Assembly: GCA_032622095.1 (NCBI GenBank)
Contig: CP136063.1
Coordinates: 215,777,982-215,841,981 of the forward strand
Direction of reading: 5' to 3'
From: Siphonodentalium dalli
Lineage: Eukaryota > Mollusca > Scaphopoda > Gadilida > Siphonodentaliidae
Length of the DNA stretch: 64,000 nt
Numbering within the stretch: position 1 is the stretch's first letter; every line of letters begins with the position of its first letter. A program made the position numbers and the translations under genes. This document shows, piece by piece, positions 2,526 to 58,200 of the stretch. Below the pieces are notes generated by a model. The model worked only from the letters and a program-made list of their open reading frames with translations, did not search any database and had not been told where the DNA came from.

Positions 2526-3301
2526 TGCATATTTCTAAAACATCGTATAATCACATTTTGGCTATGTACAACTCAGTGTACAACTACTTTAATTGTTTGA
2601 AGACATATCCTTTGTGGTCAGAGCACAGGGACTTTGTAGAAAAAATATTTATAAAATATACATAAATACGACAAGGGGAGACACCTGTCAGCACCCAAAA
2701 ACCACTGTAGCGTTGAATTCGGACTCACAACACCGATTTTGGTCGTGTGAACAGCAATTTCGCGTATATTTCGACTAACAAATGTGATAGAAGCTCTCCT
2801 TACCTTGTTAGATCATCCGTTTAAACGCGTTTTACAACTTTGAGGTGGGATCAAATCACCTTGCTTGACCATCAACATGCAGGGGAAATAACTCTATCTA
2901 TCATACCACAATTGGTCTCTCAGAATAGGTCCCTCTATAAGGCGGTGTATAAAAGAAATGGTAACCTCGCGGATTAAGACTATCTTATATCATGTTCAAC
3001 AACAATTTTAACAGAGTACTGAGTATTGGATATCGAATAAACAACAAATGGAAAGCGCGGGAACCTCAGACCCGTTCTAATACATGCAACGGAAGCAAGA
3101 TAATCCAACTTTAATGTTTAGCATAACATTTTCAAAAATTTCCCCCGCCACTGTATTCCAAAACCTCGTTCTAAAACTCTTATTTCATGTCTCTAACCAT
3201 AGTGGGAATATTCCCTATTGTGTGAACTTATTATATATACATCCTCGTATCTCGTTGTGTTCTCTGTCGCCTCCGCCATTATCTCTCGTGTTACTATACT
3301 A

Positions 3302-3484
3302 CAGTAATGCCCTAAGTAATCGACTCCTTAACCACAGCAGAATTATGGGTAACTTTTCAGGATTTAGTTGGAAATATGGCTTGTTGCCATTCATCGGAAA
3401 GCTCTTATTTTTTTCCAACTAAATCCTGAAAACTTACCCATAATTCTGCTGTGGTTAAGGAGTCGATTACTTAGGGCATTAGTA
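3302..3484. mobile_element. Family C foldback MITE, loop-shortened
   Basis: Left end cagtaatgccctaa after TA (3300-3301); the inverse end is ttagggcattagta. The arms pair over about 75 nt, but the loop side of the right arm is missing. Confidence 0.8.
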
Positions 3485-3771
3485 TACGTCCTTTTGGATG
3501 CCCACCGATATGTCCGGTCTGTAATTTCCAACTAATTCTGTGTCCGTCCTGGTACGTCAGTCATAAATTTTCAATTGTTGAAATTTTTTGACAAATTTAG
3601 CAGATGAGACCCTGTTGCCACATGTTAATACTGTATCTCGCACATAATCGCTACACATTGGTTGTGAATTTGTGACAGATGACGGCATTCGGAGATTTGG
3701 GATGACTTCTCTGCTCGAGGGGTCCAGATCTTTTGGTCACAGTTGTTAGATGCTTTGTCTGATCACCGAAG

Positions 3772-7797: not shown

Positions 7798-7962
7798 CTG
7801 TTAAAAAGAAATAAAATTAGATTTGATGTCTATTTTTTGTATAGAGATATATCAGTTAAATATTATTATTAATTAGAACGCTCTTTATTGTCTGGCGTTT
7901 TGTTTAGAGAAGAATGGATGCTCTTTATAAGAATTTGAAATAAGAAAATGCATGTGTCTTAC

Positions 7963-8178
7963 CTGGTCAGAATCGGCTAGATGGTTGTGTTGACCCATTG
8001 AAGAACTAACTATCTCGTTCTTTGTGTTGATGGTGATAACACAGCCATTCTGACAACACACCCAGTGGACATTCTCGGATCGACGTGATTTGATGCGGAA
8101 TTTGAAGTCGTTGAAGACCAGGTGTTTGCCTCCTCGATCGTTGGCGATGAAGAATACATTTACTTGAGAACTTGCCAT
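7963..8178 (-). CDS. FLYWCH zinc-finger protein of the MULE, exon 1
   Basis: Starts ATG at 8178 (minus). It encodes a FLYWCH-like zinc finger: KHLVFNDFKFRIK, then W-V-C-C-x4-C and a closing GQHNH, the C2H2 arrangement of the fold. A clean donor gtaaga follows CAG. Joined to exon 2 it gives 150 residues. FLYWCH domains often accompany MULE transposases, usually fused to them; here the gene is separate and convergent with the transposase, so it may be a DNA-binding accessory protein. Its open frame contrasts with the broken transposase. Confidence 0.72.
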
Positions 8179-8800
8179 GATGAAGATAGAACATTGAACA
8201 TTTTTTTTTTTGGCATGGGTTATTTTGGGGGGCTAACCCCGGGATGGTCAAAAGGGCCGATAGGCCCTTTCCTTCACCCCTCATATTTATGCCTTTAATA
8301 TAATGAAAATCGCTCATCTGAAGACGACTCGTGTGAAACTCGTTTAGCGGCATGCTAAAACAACATTGCAGACGAGAGCCGGGAAAACTGTTATTTAATT
8401 AATACAGACTATAGGCGCGACGACCACACCTTGCCGGCGATATTTTTGCAGGCTCGTCGGCAAAGTGAGAATAAGCCGGGGTAAATGTGTCAAACCGAGA
8501 AGACACTACAAACCGAGAACAAGCTTAATTATCAAACCGAGAAGACACTACAACCCGAGAACAAGCTTAATTAATTAAGCCGGTACGCTGTGTGTTAAAC
8601 GAGATCGTCGCTCGGTGGCGCTTACAATTTGTTAACAATATGTCGGTTAAATGCATAAAAGTAAACATTTTAATGAAAATATTGATGTCTACTGTAGATA
8701 TTTCAAATAAAACACTATATTTAATGTATATAAGGCATTTTAAACCTTGTTCTCGGTTGTTCTCGGTTGTTCTCGGTAAATAGGGTGACCCGTCAACCAA

Positions 8801-14448: not shown

Positions 14449-14848
14449 TGATAAATAAATGCAGTGTTTTCGGCTGTGGCCGGATTAGTGACTCTCAATT
14501 AGGTATAATATTCTACATTCATTTCCAAACGATGTTCGTTTACGTGACATTTGGCGGGTTTTGTGTGGAAACCCTTTGCGCAAAATCAAATTATTAAAGT
14601 GGTTGCCGACGAAATGGTCCAGAATTTGTTCCATCCACTTCGAAAAAAGGTGTTTTGAGCACAGCGTGAATATACTTGGCCCCAACGACGGCTACCGACG
14701 ACAACTCAGTACTAAGAGAACCTACACCGACACTAAACAAACCGACCACCGACGAGAATGCCATGCCAAAAAAACGTCAACTCCCATAAAGAATATAAAT
14801 TTTCCCGAGCGTCCAGTCATGGGTATATCCAATCGAACCTATCGCTAA
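14449..14848 (+). pseudogene. THAP zinc-finger domain fragment with a 1-nt frameshift
   Basis: Starts MINKCSVFGCGR, the first zinc ligands of a THAP (C2CH) finger. After a single-base loss at about 14523 the frame shifts to FPNDVRLRDIWRVLCG, then WLPTKWSRICSIHFEK with the closing C and H, and CFE. The tail to 14848 is basic and unrecognised. THAP domains occur in P-element-like transposases and host proteins; with no transposase core nearby this is probably a transposon relic. Confidence 0.7.
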
Positions 14849-17096: not shown

Positions 17097-17945
17097 TCCT
17101 TAAGCATAGTGAAGCATAATAGTGTAATGCCATATTATGCTTAAGCATAATGCTATTACGCTTAAGCATAATTCCATTTCGCTTAAGCGTAATTGCCTCA
17201 CTCACAACTCCATTATGCTTAAGTGTAATGCCTTTAGCTCTTAAGGGTAATAGGTTCTCATAGCCTTGCTAACTTACATATAATGGTATCATCTTAGGTA
17301 AATATATGTCAAAAGTTACTAGCATCAGTAATTGGCTGCATCCATTTCAGCTCCAGGGGAGTTTTGAGATGGAAATGGAATTATGCTTAACCCTTTGGAG
17401 AGTATCTGTAACGTCATATACATGACGTCATGAGTAAATTTAATGTCAACGTCATAGCAATAATTATTAACAAGTTCGGGTCAAAAAGGTCCAATAATTT
17501 GTTTTAATTTATGTGCATTTTTTGTTTTGTGTGTTATCATAATCGATTGCACTTATACATTTGGGACATTATATTAATCAAAATAACTCCTATACAAATC
17601 ATTTATAAATCAGATGATTTATTGAAGTTATGTTTACGTAAAATAACATTTCCTGAAACGACATATATGTCGTTCTACTCGCCAAAGGGTTAAGCGTAAT
17701 GGAATTCCACTTTAGCATCAGTAATTGGCTGCTTCCATTTCAGCTCCAGGGGAGTTTTGAGATATGGAATTTGAATTATGCTTAAGCAGAATAGCCTTTA
17801 GCTTAAGTTTAATGGCATTACTCTTAAGCGTAATGGCATTATTTTTAAGCGTAATGGAAATCTGAATAATGCTTTAGTGTAATGGCATTTATGCTTAAGC
17901 ATAATGCGATTAGCCTTAAGTGTAATGCATTACTCTTCAGCATTT
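17097..17945. repeat. Degenerate 'gcttaagcgtaatggcatta' array, split by a TTAA element
   Basis: Irregular copies of ttaagc(a/g)taat with short spacers at 17097-17260 and 17690-17945. A second, longer repeat (catcagtaattggctgc...ggggagttttgagat) occurs at about 17325-17370 and 17707-17763. A family G element sits between them. Confidence 0.75.
17391..17689. mobile_element. Family G TTAA element inserted in the ttaagc array
   Basis: TTAA at 17387-17390 and 17690-17693; ends ccctttggagagta and tactcgccaaaggg. The right flank continues gcgtaatgg, so the target was an array unit gcTTAAgcgtaatgg. Confidence 0.8.
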
Positions 17946-18891: not shown

Positions 18892-19104
18892 GAGTAATGC
18901 CCTAATTAATCGACTCCATAACCACAGCAGAATTATGGGTCATTTTTCAGGATTTAGTCGGAAATATGGCTTGTTGCCATTCATCGGAAAGCTCTCGGGG
19001 AGAGCGTTCCGATGAATGGCAACAAGCCATATTTCCGACTAAATCCTTAAAAATTACCCATAATTCTGCTGTGGTTATGGAGTCGATTAATTAGGGCATT
19101 ACTG
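18892..19104. mobile_element. Family C foldback MITE just before IKK exon 1
   Basis: Arms agagtaatgccctaa ... ttagggcattactg with TA after 19104. Near-perfect foldback of about 213 bp. It ends 39 nt before the inferred exon start. Confidence 0.85.
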
Positions 19105-19143
19105 TAGCACCCGAGGTGAAACTACTTTTTTTTGTCATTGTAG

Positions 19144-19260: not shown

Positions 19261-22200
19261 GTAAGCCAAAATGCATGGAGCTGTGATTAAAGATGCCCCA
19301 TTATGCAGCACAATATTGACTCAAGTTATACTGACTACGCTATCAAAACATATATCGTGATATGACTAAATACCATGGATCATTTTATTTGTCAAAAATC
19401 TTCTCAATAATTTCACATTCGGTGGAAAGATTATTATTCTTCATTATTTGAAGAAATGTGTTCAGTCATTTTTTAACCAAGGCAAATTTCAGAGCTTGCC
19501 AATGTTTTTGTGTAAAATTGAAACAAATTGCTGAAGACATTGTCTTAATGTCATGTTGTGGAAGTCTGTAGACAGCAACAATTCATTGTTGCATGCCAAG
19601 GAATACTGAGGTAAAATGTATTATCTTGATAATCGGCAATTTTAATCCAGACCTAACCAAAGTCTGCCATGTTAAATTTGATAATCGACCAAGTTCCAAT
19701 TGTAAAGTGAAGTTATATGTGTAGAACTATGCGCATCCTATGTTTTTTTAGCTGAGGAAAAAATTCTGGCCTAGGAAATTGTTTAGCCTTGCCAAATTTC
19801 TGTTATTTCTATAACTCCTACCCATGAGCCCATCAATAGAAGGTTTTGGTGGTCAGATATTGAGGAAGATATAATGGGCTCGTAAAAATTGCAATGATCA
19901 TCTCTGATAAAATGCATCCACGTTTTCTATTTCCAAAAGTTGTAAATAATAATGAGCCTTCTCAAATATGATCTTTTATATTGATTGATTGGTTGGGGTT
20001 TAATGTTGCTTTCAGCAACTAGTTTATTGCCACTTTTAGTGGTGGAGGAAATCCGCACACTTATGGCTAATCTAACAGAGATTTCAATGGCTGATAAACT
20101 CATCGACCATGTGTGGCAAACGACCGGCCAATGGCCAGTAACTGGCAACTCCACCAGATAATGATTTTGAGGTAAAAAGTCCACGATTGATGAACCCTTA
20201 TCGCCAGCGCTGGAAGGCGAAACAACTTGGAGTTGTACCCCTAACCGATTGACCACCGAGGCCCCCATTTTAAACATAAAACTGATGGATGATCTTGTGG
20301 ACTTTTGTGTTGCCTGTGCCATACAAATAATTCTGATTGCAAAGTTCTTGTCAAATCAGACCGTGCATCTTTAAAATGGATATGGCACTTACACCATAAC
20401 TAAGCATCTACTATATGTTCAAAACTGTTGAAGTAGTCATATGTTAAAAGCCTGTCACTGAAAAATACCCAGATGCCATGTTCCCGAGGGCTTGAAGCTT
20501 TTCTGCACATGTGTGCCTGTTGAATGGAAAGATGTTGGTGGCACATGGAGTAAATGGTGTTTTTACTTGCCATCGCAACTAAACAAATTAAACAGAATCA
20601 TCTTCATACATAAACTGTAAACTAGATAAATAGATAGATAGTTAGTTTATTGTCATAAATTCAACATGAAAAATTGACAAATTTGGACAATTACAATTTT
20701 TCATTTATAACAAACAAAAAACACAAGCAGATTGTTGTATATAATTTGACAATATGTCATGATGACAGCGATATCCAATAGAGTGATGCTCCTGGGTGAT
20801 GCAATATACTGGAATTATGAAGGAGGGCATGTGCCTGCAAGTTTTAACTGCCGCTTTGCAAATGCAGAGTCAATAAATGTCACTATTTTCAGTGAAGTCA
20901 TTATCAAATTGTGACAGGAAAGCCAATTATAACATGAAGTCGGTTAAAGTGGCGCAATTTTGGCAAGATACATAGTTAATGTGAAGAAAAATTCTCGATT
21001 GCAATTCGGAATAGGAAGGACCATTAAATAGAAAGTGGATTTCATCTTCAACGCCATTTGCACATGCTGGGCATATACGTATATCCCTATATGAGTACAT
21101 AACATGTATATAACTTCAGATTACATGAAAATGCCTGCTCAGACCAAGCCTGCAAATAGGGTGTCTGTTGTTTACAGAAAGAGGTCCCCAGAGGGTGAAT
21201 TTAGTGATGCTATCCCTCAATTATTATTCAAACATGTATTTACAGTAATGCCCTAAATAATTGACTCCTTAACCACAGCAGAATTATGGGTAATTTTTCA
21301 GGATTTAGTCGGAAATATGGTTTGTTGCCATTCATAGGAAAGCTCTCACTAATATGGCTTTTTGCCATTCATTGGAAAGCTCTCAGTGAGAGCTTTCCTA
21401 TGAATGGCAACAAACCATATTTCCGACTAAATCCTGAAAAATTACCCATAATTCTGCTGTGGTTAAGGAGTCGATTATTTATGGCATTACTGTACATTAT
21501 TTATTCCATAGTTTTCCGGAGAGCAGATTGCTCTAAAGAAATGTCGAGTCCAGAGTGAAATGACGGAGAAGCACAAACATCGTTGGCAGATGGAGGTTGA
21601 TATCATGAAGCGACTTACTCACAACAATGTAGTGTCAGCCAGGGAAGTACCTGATGCATTAGATGTCGACTCCAATCAATTACCATTACTCGCTATGGAA
21701 TATTGTAACTTGGGTGATATGCGTAAGGTGAGATATTTTATTGCATACTCATTCGATTATTTTTTTGCAAAGTACAGCAAAATCAAGAATATTTCATAAC
21801 GTTCAAAAAAATGTTTAAAAAAATGTTGTATTGTCCTTGAACAATAGAACCAATCATGTCAACAACGTTATTGTAACAGAAAATGTTTTCAATAAATTAT
21901 GAGGTATAGTATACATAAAGCAGACGTTTGTTCAATTGAATAAAACAATATCGACCTAATTTTCTGTACATTACAAGCTACAGTCTTCAGAGTGTGCAAT
22001 AAACATAGAACAACACAGTTGTGTGAACATATTAATGTTATTGCACTCGTTGTTATGCCACTAGGTAAAGCTCAAACCAATGGTTCTCGTTTTACCATCT
22101 CATCACAACAAACTCGTGCAATAACGTTAACCAGTTCACACACTTGTGTTGTCATATCTATATATTGCAGACTTTAAAAAAACCTGCCAATTAAAAAACA

Positions 22201-31200: not shown

Positions 31201-34200
31201 AACTTGTCTATGACTCGTTGTGAATCAAATTATTCCAACTTGTTTCATAAAATCTTATATCCCAACATAACTCGTTTGATAAATATGATTGTCCCCACAT
31301 CCGGTTGTAACTAGCAATCTGATTGGCTACAACGCCACGTTTAAATCACCATGTCCCCCGTCACCCTTGACAGCAGGGTATAAGAGAACGTGCGCGAAAC
31401 ATCAGGGGTATATGAATGACCCTTGAACTGACAGTTTCCACCAATCGTGACGTTGCTCTCGCCTGCCAAGTTTGATGTCACCTGATGCCAGATCCTTAGG
31501 TTGGCTACTGAATTATTCTTATTGGTGTGAATTATTCGGAGAACCTATGAAAAACACACTTAAATTAAGGAGAAATGACTATTATTGTGGGGACAAAATC
31601 GTTATCTCCGGCAACATCGTGGGGTACATGGAGATTTAATACCTGGATGTCTCTTTTTGAAAATCGACATCCAGGTATTAAATCTCCATGTACCCCCGAT
31701 GTTGCCGAAGATAACTAATATTCACAACTCGTCTATGACTCGATGTGAATCAAATTTATCTAACTCATTACATAAAATCTTATATCCCAACATAACTCGT
31801 TGGAGATCCTCTATATATATTACAGGCTCCAGAGTTGTTTACAAACCAGAAATACAGTCGAACAGTGGACTATTGGTCATTTGGCACTTTGATGTTCGAA
31901 TGCATCTGTGGCTTCCGTCCATTCTTGCCACAGCTACCTCCTGTTCAATGGTACGTCATATAGTGTTTTATAAGTTACCTGTTCTTGTATCTTTATTAAC
32001 CCTTTCATGACAGGAGCTATGCTGGTACAGCATTAAAGAGCATGTGCCAGTGTATACTCTTATATATGCGAGTCTCCCATTGGCTGGTCCCAGGATCTGA
32101 TTCAATTCAGAATTGTTTGAATATTCAATTTGATTCGTACCAAAATCAGAGATTTGCAGGACCTAACATGTGGGGCTCTGTGGGTTATCTCCATGTTTGG
32201 GATAGGATTCAGAAATAGATATAAGAAACATTCCAGCTAATTATATGAGAAAAGTTATGAAAAAGCAATATGCCCAATTTGGTTATTTAAATGAAAGCAG
32301 TCAGGGCACATCCTTTTTGATAATCCATCCATCGTTAACTTGTTTTACCTATTCTGTTCACCCTGGCCCATCTTGGTTGACATATTCTTTCTAGGCCAAA
32401 GGAAAAAATATTTATTGATTATAATAATGTGATACATTGATGGAAAGAGCTCAAAGAGCTCTTTCCATCAATGTATCACATTATTATAATCAATAAATTT
32501 GAAAAATGATCAAGGAAATATGGGTTGATACAAAAATCGGACTTGGCACTGAAAGGGTTAACAACAAGCATGGTCGTTCACCTATTTCATTTCTAGGTGT
32601 GGGGAGATCAGTGTGGGGCTATATCAGATTCCATTTACGCTTAAGTATTTTGGCTAACCTATTTATTGTTCACGCGTTTTTGATTTATGGTAATCTTCAG
32701 GTGAACCGTTTCCATTCACCCAATATTTCTTGCCCTGGCAGTACGACTACATTTATTTCTTGATATAAAACAGCCAGTTTTGTCTTGTTATAGGCATAAA
32801 GAGGTGCTAAGAAAATCCCCAGATGATATCTGGGCTGAAATGGATGGCAAAGGTTATGTCAAGTTTTCCAAGAAGCTTCCTGCTGTCAACCGTCTTTGTC
32901 GGTGAGTTACAGATTCATACTTGATAATTTCCATCAAGGAAATATATTAAAAGTTTAACGCTTTGGCTGGTGAGTATGTCATATATGATGTCATATCCAT
33001 GAGTGAATATATTTTTGCAAATAATCAAGTAAAATTGTAACATTGACCTATTGTAAAAATTTATTAATTCAAACGAATCAATGTAAATAATAAAAATAAT
33101 ATCCATCCGCTTGATATACCGGTACATGAAAATTTCCCATTTGGAAGGCGATTTTATGAAGTTATTTGCACAGTAACATATTACCCTAGAACTACTGTAA
33201 ATGACATAAATGTTGTTCTACCCTCCATCCATATGGCGACATAAATGTCGCTCTACCCGCCAAAGTGTTAAAGGATTGCTATCCTGATGAATACAACAAA
33301 ACAATATCAGAAAGCCACTCCTATTATGATCACAATGAGCCAAGTCCCAAACAATCGCGTAATAAATAAGCCGAGAAATAAATAAATAATACCCCCACCG
33401 GTTGTCGGCTATCTCCGTCGCAAATCCAGAGTTAATATAATTATGTCTTTGAGAATTGCATGTGTATTTATTAATCGACATAAAGTTTTTTAACTTTTGA
33501 AAACAAAAATAACATGGGTTTTTCCTGGGTGGCGATTGGAACTCAATAAAATATGCGCATCATTGACGAATAATGAGTCGATTGGAAATTTAAATACTGT
33601 CGCATACAGTACATCTGAAAATTTTACAGGCACCATTTTGAAATGACCAACACCATCCATTTGGTGCCTGTCATTTTGACAGTCAGTTAAAAAAATAAAT
33701 TATTTTTAGCCTTGCTTATTAGACGCTTGTGTCTCGGGCATGAGTTGGATTAAATCATCGACATATAGACACGGGTCCATTGTCTCCTACCTTGACCAAT
33801 CAGAATGAATTACGCTGAGACAAAGGAATCAGCTCGATGATATTCAATATTCCCAAAATATAGGATAATTTTCTCTTCCAGACCAAGAATGTAAACATCT
33901 CTCTCATGATCTCCTTTGAATTTTTGCATTCCATTTGTATATTTCAACTGCTAGAATAAAATAAATATTGTTTGTCTTAGAATTGGCATCTCGTGTGAGA
34001 GAACCAGGGATTAACCGAGTTTGTTATAGCATACTGTATGATTTCAGAACGCTTGAGGATTACTTTGTGCAGTGGCTTCAACTAATGTTACGCTGGGATC
34101 CAAATGCTCGAGGGGGTGGCCATATCAAAGAGAGGCCGAAATGTTTCTCTGTCTTAGATGCGATGTTAGATATGAAAGTGAGTAAATTATTACATTGAAT

Positions 34201-37200
34201 AGGATTTCTTTAGTGAACTTCTAAAATGTATATGCCGTTTTGGTGCAAAGACCTATTTACATATTATCAATCTACAGGTTCAATTACATACAGTAATGCC
34301 CTAAATAATCGACTCCTTAACCACAGCAGAATTATGGTGTAATTTTTCAGGATTTAGTCGGAAATAAGGCTTGTTGCCATTCATCGGAAAGCACTCAATG
34401 AGAGCTTTCCGATAAATGGCAACAAGCGATATTTCCGACTAAATCCTGAAAAATTACCCATAATTCTGCTGTGGTTAAGGAGTCGATTATTTAGGGCATT
34501 ACTGTAAGATTATTCAATTAGTCAATTATTCAAGTATAATTGCCAATTTAACCCTTTCATGACGGGAGCTGCACTGGTGCAGCATTAAAGTTTCTGTGCC
34601 AGTACATTCTCTTATATATGCAAAAGTCTCCCATAGGGAGCCTCTCATATATAAGAGAATGCACTGGCTTACAAGGTCAAGATAATTATTGCTAGGCTAA
34701 GTATTCTATTATATATGTTAGGCTCTCTATGGGAGACTTGCAAATATAAGAGAATGCATTGGCACAGGGGTTCCACAAAATTTCAGGAAGCTCCATTCAT
34801 GAAAGGGTTAAATGAGACTCATAATTGTCTTCTGTGGGTTGGTCTGAATCTGATGAGGTGTCATTAATGAAGTCTCTGTCCGAATTTTCACTGATGGAAG
34901 AAACTGCATCATAATTATATCAGTTATATCTGTAAACAGAAGGGAAAATAGATAACAATTAAATCATTGTGAAAGGAGCAGATTCTGAGCAATATATTGT
35001 TAACCCTTTCATGAAGGGAGCTGCGCTGGTGCTTCATTAAAGATCCTGCAATGGCACATGGTTTTTGCTAAATTTGAGGAATCTCCAGTCATGGGAGGGT
35101 TAATGTGGAAAAAAATCTTGTTCTAAAATGTTGTGTCAGGACCTCCCGTTAAATAATGATTGTTAATTTTAAAATAATGTTTGTCAATTTTCAAAGCCAT
35201 TGCTTATAGAATAATTCTGATTAGATTATTTTGAAGTGACATGACTGGTTGGCATTTTCTCATCATCCTGAGTATCAAGGACTAAGTTAAATCAGGAAAG
35301 ACATCAAAACCTAAATGTTGTACTCGCTCATTTATTTCTTCTAATATGTCATATAATACCATAAAATAAATTGTAGATGTTGTTTTATTCACACAATAAT
35401 TAAATTACAGAAAAGCATCAATAATAATTCAAAAGTCTGGTGCAATTATTGTGAGGGAGTGGCATAACCAGGATTGGCTATCTTCCTGAAAAACCCCGGT
35501 GTCAATATAATAAATCATTCAACAATGGCACAATATTGAGGTGTTAATAGCGAAACTCTAGAATTTATAATGTCAAAATATTGGCTTCTGTACATATACA
35601 CGTATAATTATATATATGGTTATGCATGTATGCATGTGCACCACAGTTACAGAACACTGTTTAATATTGAGGTGGACTCTGCTTAAGTAACAATGACTAG
35701 GCATGTGATATTATAGAGACCGTGTAAGCAGGGTCTGTTTGGGCGTTTCAGAGTAGTTAGCACTCACAACAGGGGTTGGGTGGCTTCTGAATTATTACAC
35801 ATTGTTCTCATCAATCTGGAGAAATATCAATATGAAATTTTCTCTTGCATAACAGTTGTGATATAAAGACTTACATCCCAAGTTATTAGTAGTTTTCCAG
35901 AGAAAAATAAAAAAAAAAATTCCCCTGTAAAATTTTATTTTCAAATATACTAATGCTTGGATACATAGGTATGAATCAGGGGCGCCGGAAGCATCCAAGG
36001 GCAGGGGGGGGGGCAGAGTGTACAAAAATGGCACTTTTCCGCAAAAAAAGGGCATTTTCTCCGCAAACTCGGGAAAATAACCATAAATTCATTGTGGTAA
36101 AAACCCCTATTTTAATGGTATTTGTTGGTTTTTATGGCCGTTTTGTGATAAAATTGACAAAAAATTAATATTCCTTGTGAAATTGGTGGTATTTGGACCA
36201 AAAAAATCACATTTTGCTATAAAAACACGAGATTAAACACACAAAAAGCATTTTCTGTCTCCAGAAAATGGGCAAGTCCTGCCCCCGCTCGCCCCCCTTG
36301 GTCAAGGGCAGGGGGGGGGGGTGTCAGCTGCCCCCTCTGCCCCCCCCCCCCCCTCTACCGGCGCCCCTGGTATGAATCTTGGACCAAAAGTAAAGAGTTC
36401 CCATGTTCACATTCCTGTTTTCAGCTAATTCATGTTTATGATGTGAATGCCAATGATCTGAAATCCTATCCAATCCATAAACATCTTATGCGACATCTTC
36501 AAGCAATCATCGAGAAAGAGACCAATATCAAAATAGATGAACAGGATCTGCTCTTGGCAACAGGTGCGACTCCCAATCCTGATCAGCTTGCTTCCACGTG
36601 CTGCGAGGAACTAGTGAGTACATTGTTGCAGAATGAGGTCTCCAGAGGGTGAATTTAGTGACGCTATCCCGCATAGCAGGCTTGCATCACTAAATTCACC
36701 CTCTGGGGACCTCATTCTGATTATGTCTGGAAAGTTTCTTTATCATTAAATTTCTATAGAAACTTCTTCACATAGAATTCTATTTCTTTTTTAGTTTAGT
36801 TTCTCTGTATCCCCACATTTGCAGATGACACATTTGCATAATCAAGGTTCCCAATGGGTGTACATCACAATATTCACAATTTGGGAACTTCAATCTGAGT
36901 CTTATGTCTCCCATAGCAGTTGAGGCCATGCAGAATGAGGTTCCCAGAGGGTAAATTTAGTGATGCTAGTCCGCTATGTGGGATACTGGATACTAAATTC
37001 ACCCTCTGGTGACCTCATTCTGCAAATGACAGGCACACTAAACTCAGGGTTGATTTCTGCATGTCACCTTTAAAATCATCAAGTATTTTGTCTCTGACTT
37101 ACTTCATACATAACTAGTGTCCAATGAATCAGACATTGCCTAGAATCAGATCTCAACATCAAATTGAATCTGAAATCCAGTCCTTCCCATGAGGAAAACA

Positions 37201-40200
37201 CAGTGAGAGCACTATATGCTCCTGCATTTCAGAGGACGGGTGCACCTGTAATTTAATCACAAGTTGAGGTTGTCTCAAACAAAATGTCATTGTGGTATAG
37301 ACATGTGTCCAGTTGAACTTTCACATTCCCATAATTTAGTGGAAAAGGACAGATCTAAATATAAATAAACGACCAAGCCTTGAAATAGCATGTCTGTCAT
37401 TTGCAGAATGAGGTCCCCAGAGGGTGAATTTAGTGACGCTACCCCGCATAGTGGGCTAGCATCACTAAATTCACCCTCTGGGAACCTCATTCTGCTGAGG
37501 CCTAAGCAGAATGAGGTTCCCAGAGGGTGAATTTAGTGCTGCTAGCCCGCTATGTGGGGTAGCATCACTAAATTCACCCTCTGGGGACCTCATTTTGCAA
37601 ATGACAGACATACTATTTCAAGGCTTGTAAACGACATTCTACAGTCACCATAAGAAAGAGGGATAATCCAGAATACCATGTTTAAAGTGGTACTGTACTC
37701 AAATGTTGTTGTTGGTTTCTATATTCTCTGCTTCATAGCATAAGGTAAACAGTATAACAGATAAGCTGGAATGCAAAAATAGAATGCTTGTCATCGAGAT
37801 ATCTTTGTTAAGTTTTCAGGCAAATGTATTAAATAAATGTTATATTATATGCATAATAGACCCAGATACTCATTACTTTTATTATATAGTTAGTGAGTGG
37901 CTTGAGTTAAACGCCCCGTGTCAACATAACATTTTACACAATATGTGCCATGTGTTGCCCAATGTGTTGCCCAATGTGTTGCCCAACATGTTATCCTAAA
38001 TTTTTTCAAGTGCATTTCAATTGTTCTGGAGTTACAACAAATACACCAGACTATGAGGATCAGTTAATCATTTTCTAGTCACCTACTTAATATTCTATGT
38101 CACTATGTGTATACATGATAGTCAATCTATCAATCACAGAGAAATGTTAAGAGTTCATGTTTTTTTGCAATTAATGCTCAATATGTATGGATATGTTGAT
38201 AAAAACATACCAAAATAATTTTGAAAAAAAATATTGAATTTTTTTGGTCTTAACCCTTTGAACCCGTAACACCGATATTTAGGTGCAAACGAACCGTGAC
38301 TATATCCCGTAACACCGATATTTCGGTGCAGCGACGACATGATTCGGTAGCAAATTTAGATATAGTATAACGAGCGTCAGACCCACTGATTTATATTTAA
38401 ATTGCCCCCACATATGTCAGCGGCGCCCATGGTGCGTATGGAATGGTTGACCGCTAGTATCGGGTAGAAATATATGCGCATGCGCATAGCATATAATCTA
38501 CAAAAAATACAATATTTTAAGCGAACTGTGCCGCTATATTTACAGCATATAATTTCGTGTTCCCCGTGTGTGTACAGAACAGACATAATTTAGACACACA
38601 ATTTCAGTTTAAATTACCCTCGCGTATATTAACCAGTGTTCTGCTACATATGGGGAAGGGTCTATCGCATATGAAGTTGATTTATTCGCGCATGCGCAGA
38701 CTAGCGCAATGACAAATAAACGGTTTATAACGTAATTATACACGACATACCCACTAATATATATATTTAAATTGGCCTATTGAAGTCAGCGCTGGCAAAG
38801 GTGTCTATATGGATTGGCTGCCCGCTAGAAACGGCTAGGAAAATATGGGCGCAGGCTATAATTCATTTTAAAAAATGCGTTTAAGTGAAATGTGGCGCTA
38901 TATATGACATTACGTCTTGTAAATATTTAATGAGTATCTGGGTCTATTATGCATATAAATTTATATTAAATTGATTTTAAGATAACCTGTTAACCTGAAC
39001 GTTTACAGAAGACATCTTCGACTCAAATTAATTATTTTTCTATATATTATCGATATTAGATAGTTTTTATTACTGGGAATTTATTGAAAATGCTCCCTTT
39101 AAGCTGTTACTGTTATGTTTGAATCTGCATTAATATATTGGCCATAAGTTGGTTTAAAGAACATTTTACTTATACACGACATACCCACTAATATATATAT
39201 TTAAATTGGCCTATTGAAGTCAGCGCTGGCAAAGGTGTCTATATGGATTGGCTGCCCGCTAGAAACGGCTAGGAAAATATGGGCGCAGGCTATAATTCAT
39301 TTTAAAAAATGCGTTTAAGTGAAATGTGGCGCTATATATGACATTACGTCTTGTAAATATTTAATGAGTATCTGGGTCTATTATGCATATAAATTTATAT
39401 TAAATTGATTTTAAGATAACCTGTTAACCTGAACGTTTACAGAAGACATCTTCGACTCAAATTAATTATTTTTCTATATATTATCGATATTAGATAGTTT
39501 TTATTACTGGGAATTTATTGAAAATGCTCCCTTTAAGCTGTTACTGTTATGTTTGAATCTGCATTAATATATTGGCCATAAGTTGGTTTAAAGAACATTT
39601 TACTTAGTGGCTAACTATTCATTGGTTAACTCTGCACCCAGACTGTGTACTGCCTGCATAATACCGTCCAAAAACCACATGGAGTAGTTACAAATCTGTC
39701 AAAATTTTGTTGATGAACATATTTCGAGGTGATCTTGAAGTCGAGAACCACGAAAATTTTACCACCACGAAAAATGTGCTTTTACACTATTTAGGTGACT
39801 CGCTTAGGCCAAATAAAAAGTAATATTTGAGTCTCAGACAAGCCTTGAAATAGGGTGTCTGTCATTTGCAGAATGAGGTCCCCAGAGGGTGAATTTAGTG
39901 ATGCTACCCCGCATAGCGGGCTAGCATCACCAAATTCACCCTCTGGGGACCTCATTCTGCTTAAACCTCAGCAGAATGAGGTTCCCAGAGGGTGAATTTG
40001 GTGATGCTAGCCTGCTGTGCGGGATAGCATCACTAAATTCACCCTCTGGGAACCTCATTCTGCAAATGACAGGCTCACTATTTCAAGGCTTGGTCTCAGA
40101 CACCGCTGCATTGAAATAAATGTCCCCCATTGGATATCTATTTTTTATATTAAGACCAAAAAAATTCAATATTTTTTTTCAAAATTAATTTGGTATGTTT

Positions 40201-43200
40201 TTATCAACATATCCATACATATTGAGCATTAATTGCAAAAAAACATGAACTCTTAACATTTCTCTGTGATTGATAGATTGACTATCATGTATACACATAG
40301 TGACATAGAATATTAAGTAGGTGACTACGTTGAAGAAAATGATTAGCTGATCCTCATAGTCTGGTGTATTTGTTGTAACTCCAGAACAATTGAAATGCAC
40401 TTGAAAAAATTTAGGATCACATGTTATAATGGAGAGGTGTCAATTTATAGACAACAATAACAATGGTGAATATAGTCAGGGGCATTATAACATAGGTAAT
40501 CCCTATGCCATATACTAGTAGCACAATGTAATTTTTATATCAGATTAAATGAGTGTATATGTATAACAATATTCCCTCTACATTTTGTGACTATTACTAG
40601 ACAAGGGAAAAATATCATAATCCATGATTACGATGTGCACAAAAAAATAAAAAATAAAAATAAAGTCCTCCATCCCTCATTGATTCGTGAAAATAATTGT
40701 CTGAGGCTCACTGTGAGACTCAAATAATAATTTTCTTTTTTGGCCATAATGTTTTAAAACCCTTTCAGTGTGGTTGGTGGGTGGAACGACATATATGTCA
40801 TTTACAGTAGTTCTAGGGTAATATGTTGCTGTGCAAATAACTTCGAAAAATCGTCTCCTGAATGGGAACTTTCCATATATACCATGCGGATGGATATTAT
40901 TTATATTATTTACATTGATTAGTGCTTTTAATAAATTTTTTTGTATCATTTATTTTTTACAATAGGCCAATGTTACAATATTACTCAGATTATTTGCAAA
41001 AATATTTTCTCCCATGGATAAGACGTCATATATGACATACTCATCCACCAAAGAGTTAAACTTGAATATATTTCCTTGATGGCAATTATCAATTATGAAT
41101 CTGTAACTCACCGACAAAGACGGTTGACAGCAGGAAGCTTTTTGGAAAACTTGACATAACCTTTGCCGTCCATTTCAGCCCAGATATCATCAGGGGATTT
41201 TCTTAGCACCTCTTTATGCCTATAACAAGACAACAAAACTGGCTGTTTTATATCAAGAAATAAATGTAGTCATACTGCTAGGGCATGAAATTTTGGGTGA
41301 ATGGAAACAGTTCACCTGAAGGTTACCACAAATCAAAAACGGGTGAATGATAAATAGGTTAGCCAAAATACTTAACCGTAAATGGAATCTGATATAGCCC
41401 CACACTGATCTTCCCACACCTAGAAATGAAATAGGTGAACGACCATGCTGGTTGTTAACCCTTTCAGAAGAGCTCTTTCCATCAATGTATCACATTATTA
41501 TAATCAATAAATTTGAAAAATGATGAAGGAAATATGGGTTGATACAAAAATTGGACTTGGCACTGAAAGGGTTAAAATATGTGTTTGTTGTTACTGTCTC
41601 CAATGTTCTGGGTGCCATTGATTTCTACATTTAATATTTCAGGTTGATAAAGAGGAATTTCTCCTCTACTTGTTCAGAAAGAAAGAGTTTCCAGCAAATC
41701 GAAAGTTTGATGGAATGCCGGCACTTGTGCAGAATATCATCAAAGAACCAGAAACCATTCTAGCAACAATGGTTAGCATTGTCATATCTGTCCCTCATTC
41801 TTTGTCTCGTCATAGTGACGACCATGTATGTCCTTGGTACTGGAAAACAGTGAAATTTTACATATTTTTTTAATGCCATAAGAGTGTTGTAAATAGGATT
41901 ATAATTTCCAACTAGTTGACGGTTATTATACTTCCATATTTTAATATGGAAGTATATTGTTATTCAATTTTTTATTTTTCACTATTATTATTTATTATTC
42001 TTAACATATTTTGTAACCCTTATATATCAGAAAGTTTAAAAGATAAAGCATTGAAATTTGGTAGATATATATACCATGCCAAGTTACATGGTAATGAAGC
42101 ATTTAGGTTTGTGTCCTAACGTGCTTACCAGAGTTATGGCCCTTAAACGAAAAATTTGGAAAAAGATTGGGCGCAGATCTTCTCCTATAAGAAGACAAGC
42201 AGCTGAATTCGGTTCTCGTAATCGTGTTAACTAATGACAGTCTACGAATCGGGGAAAATTTCACCAAGGTCCGAAAACTATTTGTTGACCTGGGGAGGGG
42301 TGCAAAATTTGTCAATTTTTTTCTTGTCACCGATTCCAACCATTTTTACTGTCGTGTATCTATACGACATACTGATGCTACTCGTGAAAGAATTTTGTAA
42401 ATCGGTTGAGAAATGACCAAGTTATAACACACATCGAAAAATGTACTAATAAAGTCCATGTGTGGAAAGTGCTTGTCCCCAGATCTTCTCCTAGACGAAG
42501 CGCAACAGCTGGATTTGCTCTATGTGAACGTCTTAAACATAGACAGAAGACGAAACCAGGAAATTGTGACTAACCCGTCTCAAACCTAACCACGTTAACC
42601 AACTGTTAACAAAGAAATTGTCATTTCAACATGTAATACACGAAATATGGACGAATATTGTACATGCTCACATCTCATTCAACAAACTAGCCGTATCAAA
42701 GACGCGGCTGTACCTTTCATCACGTCTTATTCAAATACTGATTCATAAATTTCCCGTTATGCTACACACGAAACAGAGTCGACTTTTGGGGAAACAAGAG
42801 TCCAAACGGGTCCAAATCAACCTGTTCCAGAAAAGTCGTTCATTTTGTTTTCACTTTTTGAAAAAGGCTCCATTATTTCAACCTAAACTTTTGGACTTAG
42901 AAAATTTCCGCTCATATATATAATATATTTATATGTACCCCTCCTTCATTCGGCTACTCGATCTCCCTGCGGATGGAACCTTGTTCCGATTCCAACAATC
43001 ATTACCAGAGTCGGATATCGGTATGACTACACATGGCTTGCAGTTCTCAATTAATTGAAACCATTTTGCATCCGTTTACGTATTCCCGTTAACCATTTTA
43101 ATGTATTATATATTTAAATTGAATGAATGGGAGTCAGCGTAACCCATCCGACACCCCAACCTTGCCACCCCTAAGTCACTAACTTTGGTATCATAATTTC

Positions 43201-49200: not shown

Positions 49201-52200
49201 TATATACGAATTTTGAAAAAAAATTCTATGTGAGTTCTCAAAAGGAGTATCTGAAAAGAGTTCACAAACCAGGCCCGGCCATACATTTTTACCAGAATTA
49301 CTGTCCTTAGTTTGTCATTATTTGGCATTTAGCACCCACGAAAAGTTGTCTGGGGGTTATTTCAAACAATTATCAGCAGATTTGAAAGATTTTTGGTGTG
49401 TGAGTTCTTAAAAGGAGTATATGAAATGAGTACGACCATATGTATATTTGATTTCCAGAGTATAAAATCCACATATTCGGTTGCTTATGGACTCAAAATG
49501 CTGTTCAGTGGAAAAGTTTACAGAACCGATTTGTTCAGTTTGGAGATTGAATTGTGTCTATAGAGGGTCCGGTTTGGAGATGTTTTTCTGTACCATATAT
49601 GAAATTGTTCACATCTACAGTAATGCCCTAAATAATCGACTCCTTAACCACAGCCGAATTATTGGTAACTTTTCAGGATTTAGTCGGAAATATGGCTTGT
49701 TGCCATTAATCGGAAAGCTCTCACTGAGAGCTTTCCAATGAATGGCAACAAGCCATATCTCCGTCAAAGGTATCTTGCCCACTGAACTATATGGTATATT
49801 ATCCCAAGTAGGAGGGGTTAACTCTCCGAGTTGAAAAAATGGTACGAAATTCTATGGTACATATCCTGTCATGTTCATGACCCGTGTAATCACGTGATTT
49901 CTGACACGTAGTGAAGTAATCGCCATATTTTTTTCCCTCCTCACCAGGGACGGGTGCAAAAAGAATCTCTCACAAGAATACGAAGCTAAGTTGCAGTTTG
50001 TATAGCAAAAACAGTTTTGTTTTTGTTTTATACAAACAACATTATTTCTTTGCTTATAGTTGAAAATTATGTAACAATTCACATAAAGATTACACGGTTT
50101 TGTTCCGAATATAAGATCGGAAATGGATGACTCGTTTCGTTTTAACGGACTTTGTCTTCCATAATTTTAATCGGTCAATGAAGTGATATCCGTTGTTTAT
50201 GCCGACAATATCAGAGTTTCTGGCCTATTAACGACAGAACATTCGAGGCACCATTTGATATGACTAAAGACGCTGATCGTTTTCTTTATAACAAATCTAT
50301 GACATACAGGTGACGTATAATTTAAGTTACCACGTGCGTTGACGGTGGTTAAAGGTATCACGAAATTAGGTGACTTACTTTCGAGTTCATTTTTTCGTTT
50401 TACGGCTTTATTTAGACGTTGACAATCATCGTCTGGTGTAAAACTGAAGACAAAAGCACTGTTTTAACGCTGGTGAAATACGCTGATAGGATTGTAAAAT
50501 CCTGAATGTCAATTTGAACCTTTTTAACCAACAATGGAGCTGTTACTGCCTTGGTTGGCACAGGCATGGTAACATAACACAACAGGTGTATTTGTGATTG
50601 TTCGTAATCACATTAATTACTTTCACAGGACTGCTCATCGAGGTAAGAACAGGTTCATGAATCGCCTTCCCCGTAGCTCCCCTTGACGTCGCTTCCCTCG
50701 TTTCGAGGTCCCAAGAATAGAGAACGAAAGTCGATATATAGGGTTCCTCTAATTGGCGTAATTAGCACTCAGAGCGATAGTCACACCACACAGGACGCGG
50801 GTTTGGGCTACCCATCGAACCCGTAGCTCACACGAGTTGCTTCCCCTAGGACACGGACAAACTCGCGGGGAAGGATCCAGAGAGTTTTTGTTTGGGGACA
50901 CCTGTTCTGTATTTGAGTATGTGCCCATATAAATTTGGATGTTAAAATATTCAGTACTGGATACTTGATTGTGCAAATAAAGGCTCCATATTATAGACTA
51001 TATATCATCTGCGGGCTGATGATTTGCATTACTAGGATATTTTGTTGAATTGTAGAAAAATTCCTTGAAAATATGGAAGATCCAACTGGAATAAATACTA
51101 TCTACATGGAATTTGGAGACATTTGGTTCTCTATAGTTTGGGCACCCAAACCTGTAACAGGTATCAAAACATCCCTGTATCCTTCTCTGACTTGCCGATA
51201 TATCGTGTTCCTCTAATTGGCGTAATTAGCACTCGGGGCGATAGTCACACCAAACAGGGCGCGTGATGGGGCTACCCATTTAACCCATTAGTCACATTGG
51301 TGCGCTCCCTGGACTATCGAACGGGACGTCAATCTGCTTCTGCGGGTCGACCGTTGGCTGTTGATGTGCCCCGGACGGCTGTGACCACTGAGCTCTACTA
51401 AAACACTCGACACACACCGTCCATCGCTACAAGTCGTCATCTCGAGGTCAGCGTGGCTGGGGGATACACCCTCAGTGGTCCCTGACCATGCTCTCCGGTG
51501 CCTTATGATCATAGTGTGTGGAAATTTGGGCTAAAATTACTAGTCGAATGGCCATTTTACTTTGTCTCAATTCAAATTAGGAGACTTTTTCTCAAATTAT
51601 TACATTTACGCAATTATTTGGCACCTGAAAGTTTATCCTCCATGCCTTCTGCCCCAGCTGGGCTTGGAATGGGATCACAGTTCGCAGGCTTGTTTCCTCC
51701 TTATTATAAGTCACCACTTCCGGGGGCTTGGCAGACAGGTTACTGGCCGCATTCTGGCCAACAGCTGCCAGTAACTTCGGGTTTGATTTTAAATGAAAAC
51801 AAAAGATCTTATTCCCTGACGCCATTATAGCAGGAAGCTTGCTTGGGAACTGGTACCTACTAACCTCCCATCGCCAGTTCGGTCGGTTGGATATCGGGAT
51901 CGGTCGAGCTGCTGCTCCACCCCGAGATGTACAGGCTCTGGACATTCCTCCGGGGTCCCCAATGACCAGACCTCACATGCAATTAGAAATGAAGCTTGTC
52001 GTGGTGTATTGTGCTGTTAACACCCCATCGACGGATGGAGATCAGGATCAGATCGAGCAGTCGCTCCAGCACGAGGTGAAAGGGCTTTCGACATTCCTTT
52101 CGGGTCACCTTTACATGCGCTTACGAGGGAGCTCAGTTAGTTGTTCAGTGTTCTCTGATGCAGCCAAGCGCAGGAAGAAAATTAATGTCCAAATTTGATT

Positions 52201-55200
52201 AGCAAATAACCTCAGATTGACATGATTTTATAGCATTGTTCTACAATCATTTACAATTTAACAGAACATCAGAGTGCTTTCCCTTGTTTCGAGGGTTCCA
52301 AGGAAGAGATAGAAACCTTTACGACCAGGACACTGTCACTTGTCGATGTATAGTGTTCCCTTCATTGGGTAATTAGCACTCAGGATGATAGTCCCACCAA
52401 ACGGGTCGCGGGTTGGGGCTACCCATCGAACCCATTGGCCGCATTTGGTGGGCTTTCTGGACTATCGACAGGGACTCCAAGTCGGATACTACGGGACGAC
52501 TGTTGGCATACCCTGGGACAGTCAAATGAGGAAATAGGATCCAAGTTGCATGGCTTTTGTTAGCATTTGGGTAGCAACTTGCCCTGTGATGTCGGTCAAT
52601 TTGTACCCTGCCTAACGTCGTCAGAGCTGAGTGGTTATGCCATCGGACTGCACACTTGGCGACCTGGGTTCGACCATCCTGAGAGGTATTCAACCATTTT
52701 ACTGTTCTCGGGTTGGGATGTGTTCAACTTCTTGCTTTATAAGTTGTTGCTTCTTTCCATGTTCCATCCAGCTCTTTCATGGTCACGGGCTTTGCTGGAG
52801 AATGTCTATAGTCATTCATATCACTAGATTAGTATATGACTCTCGCCCTTTCATTTTCCTGACTTTTAAGGCGTGTTCTGGACTGGTTCGGGTGCTCGAT
52901 AGGGTAAATATTTACATCTCGATTTGGGACGCAAGAATCAGAGATAAACAAGCATACATGCTTTATCTCCGACCTCGCTGTGTTTCCGTAATAGATACGA
53001 ATGACATATATTTTGTCTTCAGGTTGCTTTCAGTGCTAACTCAACATAGATTTCACTTTGGTTGTCCAGTCATACATAGATGAGTCCATTATCCATGGTT
53101 CGACATATGCTCAATTTCAGAACACTGTTGACATGAAGTCTAGTTCAGCACCCCACTCGGGCTTAATGGGCAACACGGCGTATTAGCAGCGTGGAAAAGA
53201 AGAACGAAATGGCTTCTGTGATATCGGCCTTTGCGTCTAATACGTCATTCTTCTTATGGGCTCGGTTGTCGGTACATAATGGTTTTGTTTTCCCTGATAG
53301 TGCTTGATTCGCCTAGTGCTCATTTAACATACTAAGCCAGGTCCTTTGCTGACCTCAGCGATTGCCAATGCAGGATAATGTTGCACCTGTGGGGCAGCAT
53401 ATGAATCGTGTTGGGCACACTTCATAAAGCCGGATGAAAATTCTTGCGATTCATTAGCATTGGGTGTCGGATGCCAGATCATATGATCCGCCCTCTCGAT
53501 TCGCACTTCGGGCGATGGTTGTCTCCGGAACAGGGTCCCATTGGAGGGGCACCCCATCCTTACCAGAAGGGATATCTTGCGCCATCGACTCGTCGGGGAC
53601 CAGTCAGCAGAGCTCGAACAGCTGGGGCACGGTGGCCCTTGGTCTGCTTTTCATTACATACCTGCCGTCGGTTTCTGCTGGTTTTGTGCCACAATCCTGA
53701 TGCATCGTTAGTCCAATTTTTTTTTTGTGGATTTCCACCTTAACGACATTGGAATTTCGGTTCCTGGCTGCCTTTCTGTCATGGATTCAGTAGCCTGTGA
53801 TTGGTCAGTTGGGTTTAACTGTGTTGGTGGGCATTTCCACATTTGGGAACGTCATCAGGGAAAAATGACATGGCTTATTGCATCTTAGTCGGTCATATCT
53901 CGAACTCCAGGCTTCAAACTAAGTTATCTGCTGTGAAACTCCAATTCTGAGTCCTGTTCTTCATACGGCCTGAGCCTTGCAACGTATGTCTGTGTAATAC
54001 CCATTCGCTTCCCGGTCAGACTATTGGTCAATGATACCTCCTCCTTATCGACAATGGCATGTCTCCAAGTAGTTGGTGTCGGGCCCTTTCTTGGTAGCTT
54101 GCAGCTGGTTTTTGCATCAGGCTCTCATCGTGTACTGGGACACGGCCCAACCCACTCAAGATTTGGTTCGGGGTTGGTTCTATTGTTTTTAAGGGGGGTC
54201 TTCGTTATAACTTGCGGCTTTTGCTGCCTGGGTTAGCCTGTTAGGTGCGGTATTAGTATTTAGCCATCCCTGGGTTTATAATACCCGGCTGGGGATTTCT
54301 TGCCAACGGGTATTTTTCTATTTCCATTTCCTTAGAACATGGATGCTTCTCCCCTTTCAGGGGGGGGGGGGGGGGGGGGGTGTTACCCGTACCTTTCCCG
54401 GCAAGTACTCGGCTGATACATTATTAGCCCTAAGTCCCGATGCGAATGTCGTATCCATCTCCATGTCTTCTGAAGCTATTTACTTTACTTGCAGGGGTCT
54501 TAAACTCTTAAGTGGCCACTTTTTGTTCGTTTGAGCTTGCTGACAGGTATTAGTTTTAGGATGGAATATTACATTGGCTTATGGTCCTATTGTGCATGTG
54601 TGTATATATATATATATGTATATACATATATATCTATATGTCTGTGCATGTATATGTATATATTGTGGGTTATCAGGTCAATCCAGTTATTTGATTCAGA
54701 TGCATAGCGGTGTTTTTGTTTCCTTGTGGCCTCCACCTGTTAGAAAATTCTATGCTTTACCATATAGTTCAGTGGGCAAGATACCTTTGACGGAGATACA
54801 ATATTTTCCTAAATAAGTAAAATATATATCTCCTAGAAGTATCTTGCCCACTGAACGCTGAGCTCCCTCCCAGGGTTTCGCACCCACCCCGCTCATGAGG
54901 AATGTCCTACTGGGGATACAAAATATGGCGATTACTTCACTACGTGTCAGAAATCACGTGATTACACGGGTCATGAACATGACAGAGGATATGTACCATA
55001 GAATTTCGTACCATTTTTTCAACTCGGAGAGTTAACCCCTCCTACTTGGGATAATATACCATATAGTTCAGTGGGCAAGATACTTCTAGGAGATATATAT
55101 TTTACTTATTTAGGAAAATATTGTATTTCCGACATATGGCTTGTTGCTCTTACTGAGAGCTTTCCGATGAATGGCAACAAGCCATATTTCCGACTAAATC

Positions 55201-58200
55201 CTGAAAAGTTACCCATAATTCTGCTGTGGTTAATGAGTCGATTATTTAGGACATTACTGTATTTGGTTTCTGTTGCAGCCTTCATCATGATATACAGATG
55301 TACCAACAACAGGAGACTAATGGAATCTGTGAGTTCTTTTGATTTTGCAAATTGGGCTGCAGTGTTGCATTTATTCCAATATCAAACATCTTTGCTACAA
55401 TCAGATGCTCTACATGTATGTGAAACGTAAAATGCCGAAATACGAATACAATGCGCTGGAACAAAATAAGGACTTAACATGACTGTCTGAACACTGCTTA
55501 ACCCTTTCTTTACTAAATGGATGATCAGCCAGTTATATATAAAGTATACATTGGAATGTTCTATTATTCATCTGGAGGGATCTTGAGGAAATACAAGCAG
55601 ATAACAGATAATAAAATGTGGAGAATTAATACTATTCACTGCCAGGAAATATGGCCGTTTGTTGAACTTTGTCTGAACATTTCCTAAGGATAACTACTAA
55701 TCAATGAGTATTCAGTAAACAAGCCTTGAAATAGTGTATCTGTAATTTGCAGAACTTGAAATAGTGTGTCTGTCATTTGCAGAACAAGGTCCCCAGAGGG
55801 TGAATTTAGTGATGCTATACTGCATAGCTTGCTAGCATCCCCAAATTACCCTCTGGGGACCTCATTCTGTTTTCAAATGTGTGCTTCTGGACACTGGCAG
55901 TACACATATTGCTGCATCTGAATACAACTTAACTCTTCCACGACTGGAGCTTCCTGACATTATGCAAAAAAAAACGGTCATTCTCTCTCACATATATAAG
56001 AGTATACATTGGCCTAACAATATTTATCTTGCCTTTGTAAGCCAGTGCATTCTCTTATATATGTGAGGCTCCCTATGTGAGACTCACATTTATAAGAGAA
56101 TGCAATGGCACAGGATCTTAAATGCTGAACAAGTGCAGCTCCCATCATGGACCCCTGTCATGAAAGAGTTAATGTTCTAATTCTAATGCTGCTACTTCTG
56201 AACTAATTTGGCTACTCCCATCTTTCACAATGAGGATATCGCCAATAGTGACCAATGGTGCCAATGCCATGACGATTTACATCATGCTTTCAATGCTAAT
56301 TTGAATATGTAATCTAAGCCTGATACTTACAGTTATTTCTTGATAGCGTCTGGTGAGATGTTCCAGGAATGGAGTCAGATGTCTAGTGATATGAGTCACC
56401 TAGATAGCTTGGTGAGTGATTCACATGCAAGAGCCTCATTTTGATATGAATTAATTATAAAGCTACATGGTGATTTGTGCTCCAAAATACACCAAATAAT
56501 ATTCCACTTTTGAATTTTTCCGAGTATCGAAATAGGTCGATAAATACCTACATTTCTACAAGCATTATATGTTCACCAGTCGATTGATCTAGTCTATTAA
56601 CATATCCATGCGGATCCGCTATTCGAGTGATCTAGCATATTAACATATCCATGCTGATCAACTAGTCGAGTGATCTAGTCTATTAACGTATCCAAGCGGA
56701 TCCACTAGTTGAGTGATCTAGTCTATTAACGTATCCGCGAGGATCCACTAGTCGAGTGATCTAGCATATCAACATATACACGCGGAACCACCAGTCGAGT
56801 GCTCTAGTCTATTAACAAATCCACGAGGATCCACTAGTCGAGTGATCTAGTCTAATAACATATCCACACATTGAGGTCATACAAAAATACAACTTTGAAC
56901 AAAAAAATCGGTCCATGTGCCATTCTTATTCATTGAAATTCTGGAACTGGAAACGGAACAGCTCTCCAGAAAAGGTGTATTGCATTTTATTGAGATGAAA
57001 CTATATCAGATATTTCACATGCTTTCTCTTTATTTAAATCGTAAAAGTTATGCAGTAGCATAAATGTTTCAGAGGGACAACAGTTCTAGATTTTCTTCTC
57101 ATGGTCTTACATGTGCAATTTCAGGCCATTATTCAGATTTACTGTTTGGTAGCCACCTTTTTAGGGAGATTTTTGGCCAAGCAACATTTTATTATCCAAT
57201 ATTGTTCTATTATAGAAACAAACTGTGACTGAGCTAACTGAGCATTCAGCCATCATTCAAACAAAGCTGCTCGAGTTACAGAGAAGTCCATTATGTCGAG
57301 GTGTGAACACACCTGAACCCTTAGAAAAAATGTAAGTAAACCCTTTGATGACTTGAGCCTGAAATTTTGTGAAAAACATGTGCCAACGCATTCTCATATA
57401 TATGCGAGTCAAGGGAGCCTTGCATATATAAGAGAATGTTTTGGTCTAACAATATTTACCTTGACCTTGTAAGCTAGTGCATTCTATTATGTATGCGAGG
57501 CTCCCTATGGCAGACTCACATATATATAAGAGAACATAATGCACTGGCACAGGATCTTTAATGCTGCACCAGCACAACTCCCATCATGTGGGTTAATCAT
57601 CTGGTGTATAGGAGATATTGTTTATGTTGGAATACGAAACGTATCTCAATACGAATATATATCTTAAAATGTGTTTCAGGTCATTTGCTGAAATTCTAAA
57701 AGAAATATTTGATATGAGTCGAGGAACACAGTCCTGGAAATTCCATTTGCATTCCCTCCCTTGAGTTGGAATTTCCACCTGGTACCTCAATCTTTCCTCT
57801 GGTTGGACATTTCTAAGCTTACACCCGCCCCCTATGATTGGAAATCTTCCAACTGATGGGCAATTCAGTCCTAAATTCCAACCAAGCATGCGGGTGTCTA
57901 GAGATGGCAACAATTTGTACAAATATCAACTGATTTTGTTGAAATGGTATCTGAGACTTTATCAACAAAGTTTTGATTGAGTTCCAACTCGCATATTTTG
58001 GACAGGGTTATGTCCCTTAATTAATTAATTTTATCGAGATGGCACAATAGCTTTGACGAAGTCAGTTCATGGGTGAATATTTGGTATGTCAGACTTCCAG
58101 TATCATGTATGATAGCCAGTTACAATTAATGCATTTTCAATTGAAGCCCACCACAAGTCCACAACTCGACCCTCATCTCTGATGCAATTGTTGTTATTTA

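Follow-up and report, generated by a model that had tools for sequence, protein, structure and literature searches.

An antisense copy of exon 6 in intron 8 of a molluscan IKK-family gene, probably placed there through TTAA-type MITEs

How does a gene come to harbour, in one of its own introns and in antisense orientation, a copy of one of its exons with the splice sites still in place, and does such a copy matter to the gene? The question is raised by a 64,000-nt stretch of the genome of the scaphopod Siphonodentalium dalli, hereafter the window, whose forward strand carries an IKK-family kinase gene, encoding an animal immune-signalling kinase. The joined exons 5–9 (Table 1) are translated into 227 amino acids that match IKK-alpha (PDB 5ebz, E 1e-47) and IKK-beta (PDB 4e3c and 4kik, E 1.9e-45), and the Pfam kinase model scores this partial piece at 28.1 bits, just under its cut-off of 31.7. 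Exons 1–4 and 10 were placed by eye only, and the gene span of 19156–60998 is assumed. A preliminary description of the locus had put the exon copy in intron 8; this location stands, and rests on the by-eye exons 1–4 together with the framed exons 5–9. Directly 5′ of exon 7, at 34004–34047, an in-frame PGINRVC resembles the end of exon 6, PAVNRLC, possibly by chance.

Table 1. Positions in the window of the framed exons, of the duplicated block and of the MITEs that adjoin it
Feature	Position	Strand	Remarks
IKK exon 5	31826–31950	+	exons 5–9 joined form one open frame
MITE M1 at A	32410–32561	+	palindromic centre; proximal end ..CACTGAAAGGG followed by TTAA, intact; distal end decayed
Intron 5, 3′ part (host)	32562–32793	+	within duplicated block
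IKK exon 6, copy A	32794–32901	+	108 nt, divisible by 3; splice sites and frame of exons 5–9; IKK match in PDB
Exon difference	32821		A/T; CCA/CCT, Pro, synonymous
Exon difference	32845		T/C; GAT/GAC, Asp, synonymous
Exon difference	32872		G/A; AAG/AAA, Lys, synonymous
Intron 6, 5′ part (host)	32902–32954	+	within block; 3/53 substitutions and one 1-nt indel against copy B
MITE M2 at A	32955–33271	+	TTAACGCTTTGG...CCAAAGTGTTAA, TTAA at both ends
IKK exon 7	34048–34177	+	joint open frame of exons 5–9
IKK exon 8	36425–36613	+	joint open frame of exons 5–9
Whole unit at B, 812 bp	40760–41571	.	perfect 11-bp terminal inverted repeats CCCTTTCAGTG / CACTGAAAGGG; TTAAAA on each side; MITE sequence at both ends
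MITE M2′ at B	40771–41059	−	inner end TTAACTCTTTGG kept; outer end replaced by M1-type terminus (alignment of three M2 copies)
Inverted exon 6, copy B	41219–41112	−	splice sites and frame; AG and GT kept
MITE M1′ at B	41455–41575	+	TTAACCCTTTCAG...CTGAAAGGGTTAA; TTAA at both ends; one palindrome arm present, most of the other missing
IKK exon 9	41643–41771	+	joint open frame of exons 5–9
TTAA-type ends of the block			TTAA/CCCTTTCAG

The inverted copies that had been claimed at 32566–33242 and 40770–41455 are real, and span 32562–33242 (+) and 40761–41455 (−). BLASTN within the window aligns 32549–33231 with 41467–40771 in inverted orientation, at 88.9% identity over 705 columns (843 bits), and this is the top-scoring non-trivial self-match among the matches listed. 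As previously described, the two exons differ at three of 108 sites, all of them third positions and all synonymous, and both splice sites are retained: the acceptor AG, the 14 nt 5′ of the exon and the donor CG/GTGAGT are identical in the two copies. The intron-5 part, for which about 14 upstream differences had been estimated, holds 13 substitutions in 232 nt and one 3-nt indel, which lies ∼14 nt upstream of the exon, and the greater divergence reported for the downstream MITE is borne out by 35/274 substitutions and six indel events in M2. A search of both strands of the 64-kb window with 24-mers and up to four mismatches revealed no third exon-6 copy. To see whether intron 8 contains more of an antisense IKK gene, exons 5–9 were run in tblastn (E up to 1), which returned only exon 6 on the minus strand. 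Tandem duplicated or mutually exclusive exons are duplicate exons with splice sites in the same gene. Copy B differs from these in lying on the minus strand instead of sharing the orientation of the original, and is unusable in the sense transcript; being antisense to the gene, it cannot be spliced into the mRNA, and a role as an alternative exon is thereby ruled out.

The preliminary description overlooked the edges of copy B, which end in TTAA and inverted termini. The 11-mer CCCTTTCAGTG occupies 40760–40770 and its complement 41561–41571, and the TTAAAA flanks occupy 40754–40759 and 41572–41577, so that TTAA starts at 40754 and 41572. The left TTAA is two bases off CCCTTT and the target duplication is thus not a textbook one. 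The 11-mer has four matches in the window against 0.04 expected. Three of these are the two outer ends of B and the M1 end at A, the only matches in the window to adjoin TTAA; the fourth, at 45674, is without an adjoining TTAA and is probably due to chance. At A, the distal terminus of M1 is a weak remnant, no better than expected by chance (128 of 1000 shuffles score as high), and part of the distal palindrome arm is lacking. M2 is present in both copies, and a third member of its family, with TTAA at both ends, lies at 17387–17693. As the block at B starts with the M1 terminus of A, CTGAAAGGGTTAAC, M1 at A must predate the duplication; as for M1′, its body may derive from the same copying event or may have been in place already. 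Just past M1, both copies share a 7-bp match, ACATATT.

The termini allow the elements to be classified. CCCTT is the most conserved terminus motif of piggyBac elements and TTAA their usual target site (PMC10813416); Kolobok elements are also TTAA-specific, but carry 5′-RR termini (PMC9587614). The unit at B has TTAA at both ends (offset by 2 nt on the left) and CCCTT termini, inverted at the other end. Taken together, the CCCTT-type termini and TTAA, set against the 5′-RR of Kolobok, suggest that M1 and M2 are piggyBac-like by their ends. Judged by its sequence, the unit at B has the structure of a non-autonomous, piggyBac-like (TTAA) element with host DNA inside, namely 232 nt of intron 5, exon 6 and ∼53 nt of intron 6.

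Other repeats populate the window. A further MITE family, often palindromic and with a AGTAATGCCC-type end in most copies inspected, is represented at 3299–3490, 18893–19109, 21241–21497, 34289–34506, 49613–49763, 55146–55261 and 60037–60233, and a tandem array at 56574–56867 comprises ∼6.8 copies of a 43-bp unit. Intron 8 contains a tandem duplication at 38733–39606 with a 434-bp period and a single mismatch over 440 columns (99.8%); it may have arisen recently or during assembly. The same intron has, near the exon copy, an inverted pair, 37985–38253 / 40150–40425, of 96% identity, in which the matching ends of the two members carry TTAA (38250–38253 and 40150–40153). Two open reading frames are perhaps transposon-derived, one at 7885–8232 (−) with a FLYWCH domain (E 9e-08) and one at 14492–14848 (+) with a THAP domain (E 9.4e-06); three further ORFs gave no matches in the same domain search. 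Rfam at its gathering threshold and ARAGORN yielded zero matches each in the window.

From the block, the MITE ends, the TTAA flanks and the orientation, all directly established, we infer that copy B, host DNA lying in reverse between two TTAA-type, piggyBac-like MITEs, was probably put into intron 8 through them, most likely as a passenger. Two routes can be envisaged. In the first, a transposase would pair the outer ends of M1 and M2, and a composite 'macrotransposon' that includes the exon would move. In the second, an M1-type MITE already present in intron 8 would suffer a break that is repaired by copying the block M1–exon 6–M2, and the matching TTAAAA flanks would then be those of the resident MITE. 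The outer M2 end of B is unlike the M2 end of A, hence simple joint transposition does not account for that end; the repair route explains its M1-type terminus better. With B as a passenger, the synonymous-only pattern would follow from selection acting on copy A, from there being so few changes and, possibly, from the transfer of a diverged allele of the gene.

Two features count against both MITE routes and could point to template switching: the left TTAA is displaced by 2 nt, and the 7-bp match past M1 could mean that the duplication extends beyond the MITE end. The locus would then be an inverted segmental duplication produced by replication template switching or break repair with no transposase involved, the MITE palindromes having provided breakage and microhomology only. 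The chimeric outer M2 end also fits such an event, as do the 96% inverted pair and the 434-bp tandem duplication in the same intron. Yet at each of its outer ends B has a perfect 11-bp inverted terminus adjoining TTAA, where 0.04 such 11-mers are expected in the whole window, and we consider template switching unlikely, although it deserves to be taken seriously.

The same junctions bear on the concern, voiced in the preliminary description, that the copy could be an assembly artefact. Part of the other haplotype might have been put into intron 8 by mistake and in reverse. An exon with synonymous changes only, set in more diverged introns, is indeed an allele-like pattern, and the near-identical 434-bp tandem repeat sits in the same intron. 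However, both junctions coincide with TTAA and inverted termini, the right one lies ∼65–70 nt before exon 9, the host introns diverge by 5.6% with indels, and both MITEs differ structurally between the copies. An artefact therefore appears improbable.

The earlier suggestion that the copy may be under constraint is not borne out by divergence by segment, by the conditional probability of synonymous change or by a permutation scan. Divergence in the exon is not significantly lower than in the host introns (3/108 versus 16/285, p=0.30), whereas the MITE differs both from the exon (p=0.002) and from intron 5 (p=0.006); the MITE thus stands apart from the remainder of the block to a greater degree than the exon does from the introns. 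A random substitution in exon 6 is synonymous with a probability of 0.24, so that three synonymous changes out of three have P=0.014 if both copies drift, and a site-count test (three changes, all on ∼22 synonymous of 108 sites) gives P=0.0075; both values disregard that copy A is a real exon. Because it is one, only B need be neutral, and the relevant figure is P=0.058, in keeping with the earlier caution that three changes prove nothing. Taking the host-intron divergence of 5.6%, B would have zero nonsynonymous changes with a probability of 0.10; pooling in the higher divergence of the MITE lowers this to 0.024. The divergence observed can be explained without constraint on B, which it neither establishes nor refutes.

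Gene conversion from exon 6, put forward earlier as another means of keeping copy B similar, fares little better. The least diverged stretch, 32745–32919, has 3/175 substitutions as opposed to 35/274 in the MITE, and is reached by 23 of 1000 permutations (stretches of at least 80 columns, MITE included), a weak hint in favour of conversion. With the MITE left out (at least 60 columns), however, the best stretch is reached by 354 of 1000 permutations and the pattern is gone; moreover, the higher divergence of the MITE may have a cause of its own. We regard conversion as doubtful, with a small chance of being correct. As it is compatible with any origin of the copy, the confidences attached to the alternatives need not sum to one.

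Whatever its origin, the copy is complementary to its source within one transcript. The long duplex envisaged in the preliminary description is supported in so far as the complementarity, ∼690 nt, is real and pairing is energetically plausible: RNAduplex predicts −997 kcal/mol for A:B, against −145 and −152 for the single arms, and −204 for exon with exon, energies that ignore the 7.5-kb loop and competing folds. Among the 54 inverted pairs listed (E up to 1e-20) in the assumed gene span, A:B is the strongest and the only one to overlap any of exons 1–10. A possible side effect, going by these predictions, is that the pre-mRNA forms a ∼690-nt duplex joining intron 8 to the exon-6 region; roles for it in siRNA production, RNA editing, exon masking or circular RNA formation are hypothetical. 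A further step would be to propose that the antisense copy is kept by selection, its duplex with exon 6 leading to in-frame skipping, ADAR editing, siRNA or a circular RNA of exons 7–8. The predicted energy and its rank among the 54 pairs would suit this proposal, as would the 108-nt length of exon 6, whose skipping preserves the frame, and the zero nonsynonymous changes in B at the values computed for drift in both copies, for the pooled MITE and for the site count. Against it stand the value with only B neutral and that at host-intron divergence, an exon divergence not below that of the host introns, and the layout of the gene. Exon 6 is transcribed ∼8 kb before B, and the introns on either side of it may already have been removed by then. 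At ADAR-regulated human circular RNAs, complementary matches are over-represented within 500 nt (PMC8938519); here the intron-6 arm lies ∼0.8 kb before exon 7, and the intron-8 arm, copy B, ∼4.1 kb after the exon-8 donor, outside that zone, although such closeness is usual and not obligatory. Maintenance by selection is in our view very unlikely. It is highly improbable, too, that the MITE unit gave the IKK gene an antisense exon copy that was retained because pairing of exon 6 with intron 8 regulates the kinase, be it through skipping of 36 in-frame codons of the kinase region, editing or small RNAs. Copy B is probably without function.

Pack-TYPE transposons (PMC8903248) are non-autonomous DNA elements that hold fragments of host genes. 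In them, too, inverted termini and a direct repeat resembling a target-site duplication enclose a host fragment with exon and intron, and one such arrangement, a host gene fragment within inverted termini and a target-site duplication, was found in the 64-kb window. The differences are that the ends are here of the TTAA, piggyBac-like type, the gene is an animal one, the MITEs are visible on both sides and the fragment lies antisense in its own gene. In maize, Ac macrotransposons arise when neighbouring elements bracket the intervening DNA with their outer ends and carry it along (PMC9910405). The outer end of M1 bounds the unit at B, but the superfamily is another, two different MITE families are involved, the outer M2 end is chimeric (M1-type) and mobility of the unit is putative. 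An origin from their target genes has been proposed for Drosophila hpRNAs (PMC10317233), and copy B parallels such siRNA loci, without belonging to them, in being inverted, target-derived sequence that could make double-stranded RNA; its arms, however, are ∼7.5 kb apart, with exons 7–8 between them, inside the target gene itself. PMC8903248 and PMC13317346, which deal with gene capture by transposons, both concern plants, and none of the open-access titles and abstract openings listed describes TTAA MITEs bearing an inverted copy of an exon inside the gene it came from.

A clear TTAA-type case, antisense within its own animal immune-kinase gene, would offer a compact test of exon shuffling by MITEs, and the same copy of exon 6 would serve to test whether intramolecular exon duplexes have consequences.
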